In this document: positions 15,060-62,039 of the stretch, one piece after another | Layout of the letters: every line of letters begins with the position of its first letter | How positions within the stretch are numbered: the first letter of the stretch is position 1 | Assembly (NCBI GenBank): GCA_948567375.1 | Contig: OX419760.1 | Span: forward strand, 12,152,001-12,216,000 | DNA: 64,000 nt | Direction: 5' to 3' | From: Lunularia cruciata | Taxonomy: Eukaryota > Streptophyta > Marchantiopsida > Lunulariales > Lunulariaceae | The notes under the pieces: generated by a model | Databases searched by the model: none | Seen by the model: the letters and a program-made list of their open reading frames with translations, nothing else | What the model was told of the DNA's origin: nothing | Translations under genes and position numbers: made by a program

Positions 15060-15480
15060 CAACCAAGATTGTTATACCCAAAACTTCCAACTAATATTGT
15101 TATACCCATAAATTCCAACCAAGATGGTTATGGATGCATAAGGTGTAACAATAGGAGCAGTCCTACAACAAGAGTGGCAGGATGGATGGCATCCAATTGC
15201 ATATTTTTTGTATAAGTTGTTATCGGTAGAATGCAACTTTCACACCACCAAATGTGAAGATCTGGCAATTGTCCTTGCAACCAAGCATTGGATAAACTAT
15301 TTGGGTGAGAAGGCATTTGTGGTAGAGATAGATCACAAACCTCTAGTCTACCTTGAGACACAAAACGATCTTTCTTATCGATGGATTTGGTAGGCAAGTG
15401 GAGACAAAAATTCAACATGACAATCAAATATGTGGGTGGCAAGAAGCAACTTTTAGATGCATTCACCCAAATGCCAATGG
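15060..15480 (+). pseudogene. Element C RNase H remnant
   Basis: 15208-15393 reads YKLLSVECNFHTTKCEDLAIV followed by LATKHWINYLGEKAFVVEIDHKPLVYLETQ, the gypsy RNase H core with the final DHKPL motif. A short local triplication of 'ccaa..aagattgttatacccat' occurs just before it (15058-15132). Confidence 0.75.
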
Positions 15481-16610
15481 TAAAAGATTTGGTAGTGGAA
15501 GTCAAGATGAACTCTGAATTTTGGCCAAGGATTCTTTCTATTACAAAAATTGATCCACGAATTGTATGTGCTCAATCATCCAAAGGCATCACCAACACCC
15601 AAGAACTCACCTTCTATGATAGTAGGTTATGGATCTTGGATGCGACGGATCTAAGAATCACCATCTTAGCAAAATGTCATGATTTTGGCATTGCAAGTCA
15701 CATTGGAGTGGACAAGACCTTAGACGCAGTCAAACACCATTACTATTGGCCCAAGATAAGCAACAATGTAATGGAGTCGGTTCAGAGCTGCCTACTCTAT
15801 CAACAAAATAAGCCTTCTAATCAAGCTCCCACATGACTCTTCCAACCTCTCTCCACTTCTACAAAAAGTTAGGAATAGGTAAGCATGGATCTAGTTTGTG
15901 AGTTGCCCAAGACCACCTTTGGGTTTGACTCCATCATAGTCTTTGTCAACCTACTCAGCAAAATGATTCATATGCATCCTACCACCAAGGATGTAATTGC
16001 ATTGCAACTAGCTCAATTGTACTTAGATGCAACCTTCTCCCATCATGGCCTATCTTGAGTACTCATCATAGATAGAGGCAATGAATTCACTAGTTTGTTT
16101 GGAAAACACTCTTTGGGTTCTTCAAAACCAATTTGGCAATGTCCATAGCTTACAATCCATAGATTGAGAGACCGATAGAGAGGGAAAATTGAACTATTGA
16201 GGACATGATTTGAGGCTTTACTTTGAATGAGTAAGAGAGGTGGGACACCTTACTCCCATTGGTAGAATTTGCTTACAACAATTCCATGAATCCTCCACAC
16301 AAGTCACACCATTCTTCCTCATATATGGAGAGCATCCTTTCACACCTTCAAGCTTGATAAAGGTCCATCTAGTGGCTACCAAGGTTGACATTATCAACAC
16401 TTTTGTGTCTAGAATCCAACAAAGTGTGGAGAATGCCAAGCTTAGGTTACAGATTGCTCAAAATTGCCAGAAGTAGTATGCAAATGAACATTGCCAACAC
16501 ATGGAGTTTAGTATTGGAAATCAAGTCTAGTTATCAAAGACCAACCTCAAGTGAGTTGGTTGTCATAAGCTCAGACCTTGTTTTATTGGACCTTTCTTCA
16601 TCAAATTAAC
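15480..16610 (+). pseudogene. Element C integrase remnant
   Basis: The zinc-binding motif is at 15675-15830: CHDFGIASHIGVDKTLDAVK, then YYWPKISNNVMESVQSCLLY. The H-H-C-C set has lost its last cysteine (CLLY instead of CxxC). The catalytic core starts near 15885 (SMDLVCELPKTTFGFDSI) and reaches IIDRGNEFTSLF near 16065, the second aspartate. A HPFTPSSLIKV block (16320) and VxNAKLRLQIAQNCQK (16430-16476) lead into the C-terminal domain. Confidence 0.75.
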
Positions 16611-25710: not shown

Positions 25711-26050
25711 TTCCTCCATTAGTTATCATAACACAATCTTCCTTTCACTAGTGCAAAAATAAAACCCTTTTTCTTCTCCAAGAATTGCATTAATATAACA
25801 TAATTTACCAAGATCTTATAAGTATGAATTTAGATGATATCAAAAAGATGTTTTCATATAAATCTTTGGCACTTCCTACAACTAATGGTGCTTTGAATTA
25901 TCTACTTGATTGGTATTTGTAGGTATTGGCATTTTCTTGATTACTTTTGCTTCAATACATTTTCAACCTATGTAACATATTAGATCCAAATGATAGAATA
26001 TGGATATTTTTAATATTATAGCTGGGTTTTTGACAATAGCAGCATCTAAA
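25711..26050. other. AT-rich stretch, nothing recognised
   Basis: No frame or repeat supported. Confidence 0.4.
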
Positions 26051-26555
26051 ATTTTGCCTTAGCTTTTTTGTATAAGTACTGGTAAGGAATTTAAGTTACA
26101 TTGCATTGGTATGCTTATGAACCATTTCATTTACTTATTCACAAAAGGTTTTTATAACTTATTCAGTTCATCGATGAACAAATGATGAATTCACAACAGA
26201 ATGAAATATTTCAACAGTTTGCATGTCTTCTTCTAGTTTTAGTTCTCTCATTGATATTTATAACTTATATAAGGTTTCAATTCATATTTTCAATTCATAT
26301 AAGGTTTCAATTCATTCAATTTTGCCTTAGCTTTTTTGTATAAGTATTGGTAAGGAATTTAAGTTACATTGCATTGGTATGCTTATGAACCATTTCATTT
26401 ACTTATTCACACAAGGTTTGTATAACTTATTCAGTTCATCGATGAACAAATGATGAATTCACAACAGAATGAAATATTTCAACAGTTTGCATGTCTTCTT
26501 CTAGTTTTAGTTCTCTCATTGATATTTATAACTTATATAAGGTTTCAATTCATAT
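26051..26555. repeat. Recent tandem duplication, 268-bp period
   Basis: 26051-26287 and 26319-26555 are nearly identical over ~237 bp (ATTTTGCCTTAGCTTTTTTG to GGTTTCAATTCATAT), with about three differences. Between them lies a partial third copy of the tail (TTTCAATTCATATAAGG). The high identity marks this as young. Confidence 0.95.
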
Positions 26556-36756: not shown

Positions 36757-37079
36757 AGGGACTACCACTAGAGGTCTTATCGGCCTGAGCAGCCTTTATG
36801 TCTCTATTTGCACAAGCATTGTGCATTGCCCCTCGCCTTTCCTCAGGAGGCTTGTCAGGGATGGTTTATGATACCTTAGAGATTGCTTATAGGCAGATGA
36901 TCCTTCTAGTGGTTTTTCCGAGTTGTTTCAGGTGGCTACAGCAGTAGCGAGAGGAGACATTCCTATGTCTATTAGTCGGGTGTTAGGTGCTAGTTGACTT
37001 CTCGCGATGGAGAAGGACACGGGAGGCATTAGACCTATTGCTATTGGAGAGATCTTTTTGCGTTAGGTCAGTCGTACCA

Positions 37080-37897
37080 TTGTCCTTCAACATTGTTCTC
37101 ACTTTCGACAACACCTTAGTCCACATCAGTTTGGAGTAGCTACACCTGGAGGATGTGAGGCTATATCTCTAGGCATTAGAGCACTCCTAGATATCCATCC
37201 GGAGTGGGTCATCTTACAGGTGGATGTTGAGAATGCTTTTAATAGCATCTCACGTGCATCCATCTTTAGAGAGCTTAGGGAGGCTGGTGGATCCTTGGCG
37301 AGTCTCATTCCTTTTGTGTGGTCTTTTTATGGCTCTCTTGCTTCCCTTTACTACCAGCATGGTGGTTCACAAGAGGGAGTCACCGTCTTGGAGTCAACTA
37401 TTGGTACACGTCAGGGAGATCTTTTGGGGGTGCCCTTATTTGCCATGGCTCACTTTTGAGCTCTCCTATCTACTACTTTGGCCATGCCAGGTTGTGTATT
37501 TTACTCCTTGGCAGATGATACACACATCGTAGGCCCTGTAGATCAGATTAGGCAGGCCTTTGACTACTTGACTACCGAGCTACATCTAGTAGGCTTGGGA
37601 GTCAAGGTGTCAAAGTGTAGGGCATGGTCCCCTTTAGGTATCCCTCCCCACCTTGAGCTTCCAGAGGGGTGTATCATATCCACAGATGGACTTCGTGTTC
37701 TTGGAGTGCCAGTAGGATTGGAGGATTTTGTCACACGCTTCTTGGACGCTGTCCTTGCAGAGGATGTTCTCCATGTGGATGACCTTCCATTACTAGGAGA
37801 TCCGCAGGTGGCATTTGGTATACTCTCTTCCAATATTGCTCGTCGACCATCCTACCTCATCCATACAGTTCCCCCCTCACCGTCCGAGAGCATTTGA
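37080..37897 (+). pseudogene. R2-like element: reverse transcriptase domain
   Basis: HFRQHLSPHQFGVATPGGCE leads into the palm motif VILQVDVENAFNSISRASIF (37208-37267; first catalytic D in QVDVENAFN). GTRQGDLLGVPLFAMAHF (37402-37459) is the RT fingers motif with P changed to L after QGD. CVFYSLADDTHIVGP (37495-37539) holds the catalytic ADD box. VKVSKCRAWSPLG (37602-37640) and LRVLGVPVG (37690-37716) complete the domain. A frame break separates the second and third blocks near 37460-37478, so the copy cannot make a full RT. Confidence 0.85.
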
Positions 37898-42684: not shown

Positions 42685-43234
42685 TCATCCAATGTAGGAT
42701 GGTGGTATTTCTATGCCTTGATTTTTCTCTTGTGCGCTTTTGATCTGTGACTTGCTCCTCTTGCGGAAATTCATGAACCAGTTTACCACCTGAAGAAGGC
42801 AAATGTGAGTAGAAAGCAAAGTGATGGAATAAAATTTTCTTATCGAGGACCTTTGGTTGGACTTGCGTCTAGAATCATTCTTGCACATTTCAGTTGGTTC
42901 TGTATTCGTGATTGTTGAGTATGACCATAGCTATAGGTCAATATTGCACGTCTTGCTCTCTACTGTATGTGCTGAAAACTACTCATATGAAAGATGCTAT
43001 GTAACAATTAGGAATCGTTTTCTTCCTACCCAGATGTAGGAGCTATGCCTTGAAACTCCTTGTTACTGCCTGAAGGTTTGAATGTCGTAGGGAACTGTTG
43101 CAATTGAAGGTTGTAGAGGTCTAAACTGCTCCGAGTGATTTACCTGTTCCTGTCGGACTCCCGTTTCTAGCGCTAATTGGTCTCTTTGCGCTTTCGTAGG
43201 ATTCGGATGGTCTAGATGTTCTTTCGCCCATTGC
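42685..43234 (-). other. Exons 4 and 5 of the double-homeodomain gene (homeodomain 2)
   Basis: Exon 4 (43144-43234) follows ACTACAG and encodes QWAKEHLDHPNPTKAQRDQL and ALETGVRQEQ. Exon 5 (42685-42789) follows TTCTTCAG and encodes VVNWFMNFRKRSKSQIKSAQ and EKNQGIEIPPSYIG, then TGA. The exon edges fall at the same homeodomain positions and phases as in exons 1 to 3. Confidence 0.85.
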
Positions 43235-45770
43235 CTGTAGTATGGTCAGCAATTTCATCACTGCGGTACTTGATGAGAGACCAAAACAAACTCAGGGTGA
43301 ACTCCCTTAACATACAGTAACTTAAGCTTCTTACTTAGATCAACGCACATTCTACACATCATATGACTCTTACCTCCTTGCCTAACTATCTAACATAGCA
43401 GGGATATCTGGAATGTGTGTTTATTCTATGTGTGATAGTGGTAGCTACTAAGAATATCCTAAAAGTGGTGTCTACTCTACACTTGATAATTGTAGCTGCC
43501 GAGGAGGTCACATAGGCACCTGAACGTCTCTATTGCCGTTTTTGGTAACCTTTTGGGCTGCCTCTTCCTGGGTTCGTCCTTCAACTTTCTGCTTCTTTCG
43601 TTCTTGAACCAATCGTAGACCTGTTTGGCCAGTTTACAATGTGAAGAAATGCTGAAACAATGGATAGATGAAAGGATTATGCAGAACCAGATGAAAGGGC
43701 AATGTTTGGGCCTATGTAAACAGTCACACTTTACCTGCTGGCTCGTGAGACCCGTACTTCTAGTTATATCGTACACATCCTTCTCGTTTGGGTATTTATC
43801 CTCATGAGTGTTCCACCAATCTCTGTGTAATTTGAAATGTGAAGGGTTTAGAATGGTAAAAGAAATAATCGCAGAAACAGAGACACAAATAGAGTTAGTC
43901 CTATCCCACTTTAAAGTTACTTTGTTTGTAGAGTAAGTAAGGAGGACATTGTCTATTAACCTCAAACAAACCTCATGATCCGCAGTGAGTGAGCCGTGTG
44001 GACGAGCCTTGGCCCTGTTCTTTTCCTTAAATTGCGTCTCAATTTCACCGATCGTTGAGAACTGGTGTCGTCAATATCCGTGAGAAAGCTGCTTGAAGAC
44101 GTTACACTTGACATGTATGATGATAAAGAACCAAGGGACTCCCCCTCTTGTTCTGAGCCGCGCGAGAGGTCACCGTGTCTTGCCATTTTGGTGCTACACT
44201 GAGAAGATAGATATGTAGAGTCCTCAAGCACTTCCGAACAAAGCTCATTGCCTCTCGAGTCAATCACGCCACAATTTTGTTGATATCCGAGTGTTGCATT
44301 TCCAGTCTGTTGTACAAATGAAGAGCCGGTAGACGTTTGCTCGTGTAACGGATTCATGCCCTGCATAGCTTGTTCGTTAGGACAGAGATCAAGTTCTAGT
44401 TGGGCCTCTATGTTCTTCAGTTTTTGTGACTGAAGTAGTCCACCATGATGTGGGTCCTCCAAGAACTCAGAGAAATCTTCAGACAGGTAAGCCTCAAGTC
44501 TTTGTAAAAAATTTGGTTGTCCTTTCAAATGAGGGATATCCCGAACTTCGCAGTTCTCTAGTAATTTATGCCCAAGTTTGAAGTCACTACTCGGTGGACT
44601 ACCCTCAAACCAACACATTAAGAACTGATCATCTTGGGAACAAAGAGGGAGTGCCCGGTCCTGTTCTCGAGGGATAAAATCAGCTCGATCTCCAGGCCCA
44701 GGATGAACTTGATAGGGCGAACTTGATTTTATATCTCCAGATAATGAGTCAACAGTAACAAGATCATCCCACGTTCTTAATTGGGGTCCGTAACCATACG
44801 TAGTTGTCATATCCAGTCCAGAGTATTCTTCCATAGTGCAGTCATGAAATTCTTCGGTTACCGAAGGAGGTATGGAGTCAAAAGTGGTTGCAATCTCCAG
44901 TCCCCTACGGCCCTCCATAATATTGTAATCATCGAACCTCTGTGATCGAGGTGTGAACTTATCCGCAAGTGCGAATGACTCTGTATAGTGGCAGTCAAGC
45001 ACACCCTGAAAATGCGGATATGCGGTGGATGTTTCTGACTCCAAACCTGTAGTTGCCGAACTCATGACCTGGGAAGAGCCTAGACGACTGGAATCGACTA
45101 GGGTGTGCTGGTGATTCAGAGAACCACAAGTGCTTTCTGATACCATTGTTATAGCGGAGACTTCAGTAGTGCAATCATTTAGCGTATCCGTCCTGAACGG
45201 AAAGTACTCCGCAGTTGGACAATCATCTGAGTCGAAACTGTATTCTTCAGTGGGACAATCATATGTATAGAAGGACTCTGAATGAATGTCAAAAGCACGT
45301 GTGGAAGCTGACTCAAATAAGGGTGATGGATGTAACGCATCACCCAGGGTTTGAGGACGAGGTACGAAATCGATGTCTAATTCCGTGAACTGAGAGTACC
45401 ACAGACCATTGCAATTAGTCATGTCCTGAGGCTCAAATAAGCTGGAAGCATAATCAGAGATGTCTTCCGTGGAAAACAAGCAAGTATCTGAACCTGGTAA
45501 CTCAAGGAACCGACAAGATCCTGGAGTATCGCTTCCAACGGTAGTACGTGAAGGAGGAATACAACGATCTGCAGTTATAATTTCTGTTACCTCTGAGTAG
45601 CAGGAAATGTTCGTATCATCCCATTTTTGGTGTTCCTGTAAGAATGCCCAGTTGACTGCACTGTGAGATCTTGATTCCCTGGTTCGGACAATGTTCTGCG
45701 ATTGGCTCCACTCCAAAGAGGATTCTAATTGCTTTACGAACAAATCCTCCCCAGCAGCCCCACCAGTCAT
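42685..45770 (-). CDS. Double TALE-type homeodomain transcription factor, five exons, ~727 aa
   Basis: Exons (minus): 43972-45770, 43735-43822, 43520-43620, 43144-43234, 42685-42789. All four introns (149, 114, 285 and 354 bp) are GT-AG. The joined frame is open. Start: the first ATG after an in-frame TGA 63 bases upstream. Residues 1-575 are acidic and Ser/Thr-rich, with five DC-x-x-E-like motifs (YDCPTEEY 170-177, DDCPTAEY 182-189, NDCTTEVS 198-205, LDCHYTES 258-265, HDCTMEEY 309-316), probably an activation or interaction region. An Arg-rich arm (LRRNLRKR, 577-584) opens homeodomain 1; helix 3 is QQVYDWFKNERSRK (628-641). Homeodomain 2 begins KRLPKTAIETFRQW (652-665), continues DHPNPTKAQRD and ends EQVVNWFMNFRKR (692-704). 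The two WF pairs are 64 residues apart, about one TALE homeodomain, so the domains abut. Helix-3 position 50 is Lys in domain 1 and Met in domain 2; TALE proteins usually have Ile. No KNOX, ELK or BELL domain was seen. Expected role: nuclear DNA-binding regulator. Confidence 0.85.
43520..43822 (-). other. Exons 2 and 3 of the double-homeodomain gene (homeodomain 1)
   Basis: Exon 2 (43735-43822) follows TTACACAG and encodes DWWNTHEDKYPNEKDVYDIT and STGLTSQQ. Exon 3 (43520-43620) follows CAAACAG and encodes VYDWFKNERSRKLKDEPRKR and then QPKRLPKTAIETF plus two bases. The intron between them (43621-43734) is 114 bp, a multiple of three, and has no in-frame stop. Confidence 0.85.
43972..45770 (-). 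other. Exon 1 of the double-homeodomain gene
   Basis: 599 codons plus two bases, ending ATC ATG AG before GTTTGT. It carries the acidic N-terminal region and the start of homeodomain 1 helix 1. The split codon AG|A (Arg 600) is completed by exon 2. Confidence 0.85.
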
Positions 45771-46112: not shown

Positions 46113-46267
46113 GGACGTTCAGCAGGATTTAGATTTGGACGTTTAGTAAGTTATTCAAATCCGTCATATGACGTTTAGCAGGTCATCTAAATCCGTCATA
46201 CGGACGTTTAGCAGGTGATGCAAATCCGCCATATGGACGTTTAGCAGGTTATCTTCATCCGTCACAA
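46113..46267. repeat. 33-bp minisatellite upstream of the homeobox gene, ~4.7 units
   Basis: Units start at 46113, 46137 (first unit shortened to 24 bp), 46170, 46202 and 46235. The consensus is GGACGTTTAGCAGGTTATNN followed by AAATCCGTCATAT. Each unit carries an ACGT core (GGACGTTTAG), a core shared by binding sites of bZIP factors. Confidence 0.9.
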
Positions 46268-60017: not shown

Positions 60018-61412
60018 CTTATCATGCAATTATAGCAACAGCTCATGGAATGGTTCCGGAGCTGCAGTGGCAAAATTATTTCGGGAAGGTGAAGCAGACG
60101 AGAATGGAACAAAAGACAATCACGAAGAGTTGAAAAACGTAATGCCAACCGACAGAGGCGAGATGAGGACCTTGGCATCGCTAATCTCTCTGAAGGTCTA
60201 GCAACGACCGATTCGACATCAAACTGTTGATGTTGATGTTGATGTTCAATTCGAGCTGAACCTATCACACTACCTGAACCTATCACACTACCACCTCAAC
60301 AATCACTATGCGAAATAATTTGAACAGGCCACTCCTTCCCCTTCCACGACGATCCCGACAAGTTGACAACTGATGGTTCATGCGAATCGACTACGAATTC
60401 TACCGCACGATTCTTTCCAATTCAAAGAAAACCTCTCCGTATCGACAACTCCATCGTGCCTGCCATCATTCATGTCAGTGGAAACCAAGGCTGGTCGGTC
60501 TCTGATGTCTTCTTCAGAACGGGGTATCCCGACTATTCCAGGCCAGCAAGTCGATCGCAAGTCTCACCCTTTTGGTTCCGAACGGGGTACCCGTTCCGGC
60601 AGTGGGTTCCCATTAAGGAGGTGTAAGGTCAAAAACTAGTGTAATTGATGGAAGGTGGGTATTTTTCCCAATTGGAAACCACGTTAATCTACTGGCAATA
60701 GAAGGAAATCTATTGATAGTGAATATAACATACGCCATGGTATTTAATTGTTGCACAATCACACGAGTTATGTATGTTCCCAAATCTAGTTTGAATGTAT
60801 ATGAAATGGATCAATTGCACGTCCACTATGTGTGAGGAGGACTCGAGGAAGTGAAAAGTGTCTGAAGAGGGAGAGTAAGAAGAAAAAGCAATAACAGTAG
60901 GAATGGATCCTAGCTAGTGAACGAGAGTTTGAAATAACTGTTCCAACACTAGATACTGCAGTTTCTCGGTCATTTATACGGATCCTCTGACCAAAATGAG
61001 TAATCTTGATGAGGAGTTGGAGCTTTGTATCTCTCATCACAAACTGATCTCACCGGATGAGAATCAGAGAAGGAAAAATCCACATGGTGCGAGAAATAGA
61101 GTGAAGGTGTGCACACAAGCAAATAACTGAAGTTGTTGCAGCAGATTCGCAAATAGACCATAGTTCATTTGCTTTGTGCTTGGTGTTGTGAAGGATCGCA
61201 TTCTGGCTTGCGCTGGTATGGATGCAGAGAAGGGAGTTTCTTACTGAGAAGTCTTTCTAAGTCAGAACTACACATTTTGTTGGAAGATGCCGTTGGATCC
61301 TTCAAAATAACAGTTCGCATTGCTGTTAGGCTAAAGTTGAATGAGTGGCAACACAAGCTGCCAGAATTTTGGGATCCGTGATCAATACCAGAAGAAGCTG
61401 GTGAAGAGAAGC
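60018..61412. other. Intergenic, no gene supported; small repeats
   Basis: A (TGTTGA)n-like run lies at 60222-60246, and the unit ACCTGAACCTATCACACT is doubled near 60258-60291. Near 60740-60810 the plus strand reads CTITRVMYVPKSSLNVYEMD, faintly like the NVLYVPxLxxNLLSV motif of Ty1/copia polyproteins, but nothing around it confirms this. The part before 61413 must include the promoter of the NTPase gene. Confidence 0.35.
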
Positions 61413-62039
61413 ATGGCGGTCAAGCCTTTAATCTTTGTAACAGGGCCTCCGGGTGTCGGCAAGACGACACTTATTGTGAAAGTTCTCGAAAGGGTGAGAA
61501 AGAGTTATCCAAATTTGAGATTCCATGGATTTTACACGAGGGAAATGAGGGATTCAGAGGAAGTGCGAGTAGGTTTTGAAGCTGTAACTGTGAATGGGCG
61601 AAGAGCACCACTAGCTACAACCTCCGACACCTCTACCTCTTCGAGTTCGGGCGGAGTAAGAGGTAAACTAGCCCCCAAAGTGGGAAAATACAATGTGGAC
61701 GTGGAGGGATTTGAGACCTTGGTGCTACCAGAACTAGAATTGGAGAATGCGGGGGGATCTGAAGGTGGCAGGCTCTTCGTAATCGACGAGGTGGGCAAGA
61801 TGGAGCTCTTCAGCTCCAGCTTCTTTCCGGCGGTTTGCAACATTCTGAATTCGGGATCTGCATCTGGATCTTCTCTCGTTTTGGGTACAATTCCGGTACC
61901 CAAGTTTGGGAGAGAAATTTCGGAGGTTGCGCAGATTAAGAATCGTCCTGACGTCGCTGTTTATATCTTAAGTAAAGACAATCGAGATGCCATGGCCAAC
62001 TCCATTTTCGACCACTTGGAGTCTTTCTTGAAGCAGTGA
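61413..62039 (+). CDS. THEP1: THEP1-type nucleoside-triphosphatase (cancer-related NTPase family), 208 aa, intronless
   Basis: A P-loop NTPase that hydrolyses nucleoside triphosphates in vitro; its cell role is unsettled (family knowledge). Residues 11-18 are the Walker A box GPPGVGKT after a hydrophobic strand (LIFVT). RFHGFYTREMR (36-46) is the conserved FYTREVR-type motif. LFVIDEVGKMEL (121-132) is the Walker B strand with the family signature DEVGKME. LVLGTIPVP (155-163) is another family block, and the end is DHLESFLKQ. An insertion rich in Ser, Thr and Gly (69-84) lengthens it slightly over the ~180-190 residues usual for bacterial and animal members. The ATG at 61413 is preferred over the in-frame ATG at 61341, because homologues start just before the strand leading to Walker A. 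No intron is needed. Confidence 0.93.
   Translation: MAVKPLIFVTGPPGVGKTTLIVKVLERVRKSYPNLRFHGFYTREMRDSEEVRVGFEAVTVNGRRAPLATTSDTSTSSSSGGVRGKLAPKVGKYNVDVEGFETLVLPELELENAGGSEGGRLFVIDEVGKMELFSSSFFPAVCNILNSGSASGSSLVLGTIPVPKFGREISEVAQIKNRPDVAVYILSKDNRDAMANSIFDHLESFLKQ

Follow-up and report, generated by a model that had tools for sequence, protein, structure and literature searches.

A gene encoding two homeodomains in tandem lies on the minus strand of the window, the 64,000-nucleotide stretch of Lunularia cruciata contig OX419760.1 analysed here. It has five exons, and splicing these at GT-AG borders yields one open frame of 727 codons (Table 1). The WF pairs of the two homeodomains (HD1 and HD2) start at residues 633 and 697; a further WF at residue 387 lies outside both domains. 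Re-splicing reproduced all of the corresponding entries of the first-pass annotation, namely, the coordinates, five exons, four GT-AG junctions, frame length, and positions of the two WF pairs.

Table 1. Coordinates of the gene, its homeodomains, and the upstream repeat (window positions)
Feature	Coordinates	Strand	Description
Exon 1	43972..45770	-	1799 nt; start codon, 583-residue N-terminal region, HD1 arm and first half of helix 1
Intron 1	43823..43971	-	149 nt, phase 2, GT-AG; HD1 position 17(2/3), numbered from W48
Exon 2	43735..43822	-	88 nt; HD1 end of helix 1, loop, helix 2
Intron 2	43621..43734	-	114 nt, phase 0, GT-AG; HD1 position 44/45
Exon 3	43520..43620	-	101 nt; HD1 helix 3, then HD2 arm and start of helix 1
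Intron 3	43235..43519	-	285 nt, phase 2, GT-AG; HD2 position 17(2/3)
Exon 4	43144..43234	-	91 nt; HD2 end of helix 1, three-residue loop, helix 2
Intron 4	42790..43143	-	354 nt, phase 0, GT-AG; HD2 position 44/45
Exon 5	42685..42789	-	105 nt; HD2 helix 3, basic tail, stop codon
HD1	43573..44021 (spliced)	-	Residues 584-645, 62 residues; V45 Y46 D47 W48 F49 K50 N51 E52 R53 S54 R55
HD2	42742..43569 (spliced)	-	Residues 647-709, 63 residues; V45 V46 N47 W48 F49 M50 N51 F52 R53 K54 R55
33-bp tandem repeat	46137..46264		3.9 copies, 80% matches; about 370-490 bp upstream of the start codon

Exon 1 runs for 599 codons without a stop, for which the naive probability at its own base composition is about 7e-15. 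Support for the four predicted splice junctions comes from the frame that stays open, from the GT-AG ends, from homeodomain similarity that continues across each junction, and from the matching intron positions in HD1 and HD2. The exon join could be an artefact of two neighbouring single-homeodomain genes, or of a pseudogene, given that the exon structure is read from genomic sequence alone and that the donor of intron 1 is weak, agreeing with the donor consensus at six of nine positions (7, 7, and 8 in the other three introns). Against this, a single frame stays open across five exons, all four introns have GT-AG ends, and the exons differ from the introns in G+C content (42–51% vs. 34–40%). 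Moreover, exon 3 runs unbroken from helix 3 of HD1 into the beginning of HD2; therefore, the domains cannot come from separate genes. We regard an artefact as highly improbable and nearly excluded.

In the joined protein, the Pfam model Homeobox_KN is found twice, with 68.2 bits. Submitted alone, each segment passes this model (HD1 31.7 bits, HD2 51.0 bits, cut-off 24) and likewise the broader Homeodomain model (HD1 34.0 bits, HD2 32.6 bits, cut-off 22.9), and HD1 narrowly passes the Homez model too (21.8 bits, cut-off 21). Hence, to the question raised by the first-pass annotation, whether only one of the segments scores as a homeodomain, the answer is that both do. HD2 is a standard TALE homeodomain of 63 residues, with a three-residue loop and a gapless alignment to the homeodomains of Meis1 and Meis2. 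In HD1, the loop between helices 1 and 2 is extended by two residues, one short of the TALE three, and HD1 is best called TALE-like. The description of two tandem TALE-type homeodomains thus applies fully to HD2 and, with the caveat of one missing loop residue, to HD1; the statement that there is practically no linker is borne out by the single residue, P646, between the domains. Searching the window with the protein by tblastn at E<=10 revealed no third homeodomain and no second copy of the gene; the exons and their cross-matches are accompanied only by weak scattered hits (best E 0.28).

Global alignment of HD1 with HD2 yields a score of 68, with gaps and 22 identical residues of 56 aligned; this is 9.8 standard deviations above 2000 shuffles of HD2 (mean 14.7, maximum 39). 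With one gap allowed between position 17 and W48, the identity is at most 15 of 46 residues, and 14 if the gap is placed in the loop. At positions 47, 50, 51, and 54 of the recognition helix, HD1 has Asp, Lys, Asn, and Ser, and HD2 has Asn, Met, Asn, and Lys; the helix of HD1 is unusual in its D47, K50, and S54.

Among solved structures, the best single-stretch match of HD1 is the TALE protein TGIF2LX (31.9 bits), HD1 being one residue shorter by the matched ranges; the score with DUX4, 32.9 bits, is a sum over two weak stretches. HD2, in turn, matches Meis, from the KNOX side, best among solved structures, with 43.6 bits, and PBX/Extradenticle reach at most 37.4. Because HD2 matches Meis above PBX/Extradenticle, homeodomain sequence does not settle the side to which the gene belongs, and such scores do not tell BELL from KNOX.

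HD1 and HD2 are each cut twice, at 17(2/3) and 44/45 and with the same phases, so that the introns follow in the order 2, 0, 2, 0. Since both positions and phases agree, the homeobox was most likely copied together with its introns inside one gene, that is, the pair would have arisen by intragenic duplication. These are the only two intron positions in either homeodomain; introns at 24(2/3) and 48(2/3) are absent. According to the accessible text of Joo et al. (2018, PMC6219170), introns 44/45 and 48(2/3) are the oldest in TALE genes and are split between the two partner classes, 48(2/3) being the position of the KNOX/MEIS group in Viridiplantae and Metazoa, and of the PBX group in red algae and cryptophytes; 24(2/3) is known as specific to plant BELL genes, yet a GLX gene of Klebsormidium has it as well. 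The TALE intron positions named in that text do not include 17(2/3).

For the joined protein, Pfam at E<=10 (the HMMER filters drop most matches above approximately 0.1) lists no KNOX, ELK, POX/BELL, or PBC model, in agreement with the earlier remark that no KNOX or BELL accessory domain is recognisable, and, under the same settings, no known domain in residues 1–583. This region is acidic (92 Asp/Glu vs. 39 Lys/Arg) and rich in Ser (13.4%), and may, we infer, serve in activation or in docking a partner. Single-sequence folding of exon 1 gives a mean pLDDT of 33.1, with 593 of 599 residues below 50; as no alignment was used, these values are no proof of disorder.

Comparison of fixed windows within the N-terminal region shows no excess of internal repeats (best score 30, mean of 20 shuffles 30.8). 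Gapped local alignment pairs residues 16–95 with 246–320 (exon 1, 45770–44022) at a score of 56, reached by three of 300 shuffles, for which fewer cut points were tried than for the real sequence, a procedure that favours the latter; the apparent internal similarity is weak. Two short motifs recur in the same region, FxPRxQ (residues 135, 272, and 365) and DCxxE (171, 199, and 310).

Intron 2 has a length that is a multiple of three and contains no stop codons. Its retention would therefore insert 38 residues and break HD1, keeping HD2 in frame, and may possibly act as an isoform switch. Upstream of the gene, TGAC/GTCA has ten matches in 630 bp, several of them in the 33-bp repeat, this being a raw count without a control. 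The repeat may be a promoter element, an autoregulatory site bound by a TALE protein, or a product of chance.

The G+C content of the window is low, varying between 24 and 49% in 2-kb steps; together with the introns and the traces of retroelements, this would suit a bryophyte. The plus-strand segment 36178–39298 is G+C-rich (47–49% in 2-kb steps) and is perhaps a decayed non-LTR element; a weak match to reverse transcriptase at 37067–37459 (RVT_1, 24.9 bits) is below the cut-off of 29.6. An Integrase_H2C2 match (58.0 bits) at 15357–15836 probably marks the remains of an LTR retrotransposon. At 26050–26555, a 268-bp unit is present in 1.9 copies with 98% matches, which reads as a recent tandem duplication. 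Another open reading frame, of 232 codons, lies on the plus strand at 61341–62039; it matches NTPase_1 of Pfam with 126.7 bits (cut-off 23.9), and we take it to be of the THEP1 type.

The first-pass annotation had presented the pair as an architecture new among plant regulators, on the premise that the plant homeodomain classes carry one homeodomain. The premise is contradicted, and the claim of novelty fails, because Dierschke et al. (2021, PMC8476127) described, in the text accessible to us, the "BELL-gamete" genes MpBELL2 (Mp4g09650), MpBELL3 (Mp8g02970), and MpBELL4 (Mp8g07680) of Marchantia polymorpha, which encode two or three homeodomains apiece, and their kin in liverworts and some early-diverging mosses; the count of two or three refers to the Marchantia genes. 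In the same description, the C-terminal homeodomain is the best conserved, the multiplicity is ascribed to intragenic duplications, a PBC domain is not readily discernible, and MpBELL3 and MpBELL4 are long proteins, while MpBELL2 is small and consists of only two homeodomains. Among the literature matches listed, which leave out most subscription journals, supplements, and figures, PMC8476127 is the only one with a plant TALE protein having more than one homeodomain. The phrase "two homeoboxes" was matched once in PMC6368402, yet is absent from its main text, and the accessible texts of PMC6476727, PMC10715061, and PMC8793881 contain nothing on two homeodomains in one protein.

The gene studied here is thus most likely a further member of an already described multi-homeodomain group. 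In common with MpBELL2/3/4 as portrayed in that source, it has more than one homeodomain of the TALE or TALE-like kind per protein, both segments being above the cut-off on their own; a better C-terminal homeodomain (51.0 vs. 31.7 bits); marks of duplication, seen here as the matching intron positions and phases; and no obvious PBC domain. It shares the large protein size with MpBELL3/4, and differs in this from the small MpBELL2, itself with two homeodomains only. Where the Marchantia proteins have two or three homeodomains, the present one has exactly two, one residue apart, with introns 17(2/3) and 44/45 in both. From this likeness to published descriptions, the gene is probably a TALE transcription factor of the BELL/GLX side and of the BELL-gamete kind. 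The introns, at the positions of PMC6219170, point both ways: intron 44/45 is present and the 48(2/3) intron of the KNOX/MEIS group is absent, as expected of the BELL side, but 24(2/3), reported as plant-BELL-specific, is absent too. The preference of HD2 for Meis, i.e., for the KNOX side, likewise lends no weight to a BELL placement.

Two observations, intron 17(2/3), not named in the accessible part of PMC6219170, and Meis as the best match of HD2, would fit a double-TALE gene of independent origin, in which the homeodomain was duplicated within another TALE lineage (e.g., GLX-basal or KNOX-derived) unrelated to BELL-gamete and with another role. However, several BELL-gamete traits coincide here (a long protein with two homeodomains, of which the one at the C-terminus is best conserved, and with no accessory domain), and both the KNOX domains and the 48(2/3) intron are absent. 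An independent origin is accordingly judged unlikely, though less so than an artefact of splicing, and membership in the BELL-gamete kind is the preferred assignment.

Canonical land plant BELL proteins generally have one homeodomain. Like the present protein, they (e.g., MpBELL1) carry a TALE homeodomain near the C-terminus; they differ in having POX/BELL and SKY domains and the 24(2/3) intron, whereas here POX (PF07526) and 24(2/3) are missing, and the gene is therefore set apart from them. KNOX genes, too, encode a TALE homeodomain near the C-terminus, together with KNOX1, KNOX2, and ELK domains and with the 48(2/3) intron, none of which is present here.

DUX proteins have two 60-residue non-TALE homeodomains; those of DUX4 are not known to have the TALE loop. 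Mammalian DUX4 resembles the present protein in having two homeodomains near each other, and helix 3 of HD1 (43588–43611 in exon 3, residues 633–640) reads WFKNERSR, compared with WFQNERSR in HD1 of DUX4. On the other hand, the DUX4 HD1 has two residues fewer in the loop region in the alignment, either DUX4 domain, taken singly, is a weak match to HD1 (16.3 and 14.7 bits), and with 62 and 63 residues the present homeodomains differ from the DUX pair, defined by two domains of 60. The likeness between HD1 and DUX4 is most likely due to convergence.

Searches for homologous proteins returned 79 candidates for the homeodomain region of the full protein (none at E<=0.01), 4324 for exon 1 (no match), and 15 for the homeodomain pair with flanks (no match), in collections inferred to hold few or no plants. 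Pattern matches to the homeodomain pair numbered 50 in prokaryote genomes and three in viral contigs, none confirmed by tblastn. The empty homologue searches do not show rarity, because the collections, judging by the tool descriptions and by the absence of KNOX and BELL proteins among the hits, are probably plant-poor.

The role of such a gene may be approached through Marchantia, for which the accessible text of PMC8476127 reports full-length transcripts of MpBELL3/4 in antheridia and shortened transcripts in the egg. In a leaf assay, MpBELL4 and MpKNOX1 form a heterodimer in the nucleus, and crosses with both parents mutant for bell3/4 give no mature sporophytes. Two findings of the same text count against the analogy: single mutant males of bell2, bell3, and bell4 have no phenotype, and the short form of MpBELL3 binds MpKNOX1 inefficiently. 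Gamete-directed activation of the zygote is also described, in the parts accessible, by Hisanaga et al. (2021, PMC8478417) and in a review (PMC8793881).

By analogy, we provisionally assign the protein to factors of the BELL-gamete type that work with a KNOX1 protein at zygote activation. It would be made in the male germ line, perhaps with a shorter form in the egg; after fertilisation, it would meet the KNOX1 of the egg, help to bring it into the nucleus, and start the zygote programme. Its long acidic N-terminal region would activate transcription or dock a partner, and its C-terminus would act through the two duplicated homeodomains. Of these, HD2, with a near-standard TALE helix (N47, M50, N51, and R53), would supply the main contact, with a TGAC-type site, and HD1, with its diverged helix (D47, K50, and S54), may add a neighbouring half-site, alter the choice of partner, or be a modifying or dimerising module.

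A degenerating HD1, kept for dimerisation or nuclear import or broken in an isoform that retains intron 2, would leave HD2 as the only DNA-binding domain, a state compatible with the BELL-gamete assignment. HD1 is indeed the weaker domain (31.7 bits), one residue short and carrying D47, K50, and S54, and retention of intron 2 would put the 38 residues before its helix 3; yet this retention is a prediction from sequence, and HD1 keeps W48, F49, N51, R53, and R55 and passes the cut-offs of Homeobox_KN and Homeodomain, therefore it still looks folded and DNA-contacting. We hold binding by HD2 alone to be a tentative possibility, somewhat on the unlikely side. The first-pass annotation had suggested that the protein could bind a bipartite site as a monomer, and binding of such a site by one molecule is possible. 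HD1 and HD2 might also read DNA together as a compound head, with HD1 (K50, S54, and the DUX4-like NERSR helix) supplying the half-site that otherwise comes from the KNOX partner; this we consider unlikely. If true, it would mean binding to composite sites, with zygote genes started partly without KNOX, or to a site unlike that of the KNOX–BELL dimer.

For the family, the statement that plant homeodomain proteins have only one homeodomain is out of date and should not be repeated. The clean exon record suggests how the doubling came about, namely by copying of an entire homeobox along with the introns in it. In Marchantia, BELL genes with several homeodomains act where the haploid generation gives way to the diploid one, and the gene of Lunularia, as a further likely member, offers a compact case for asking whether a second homeodomain alters the site that is bound or the dependence on KNOX.
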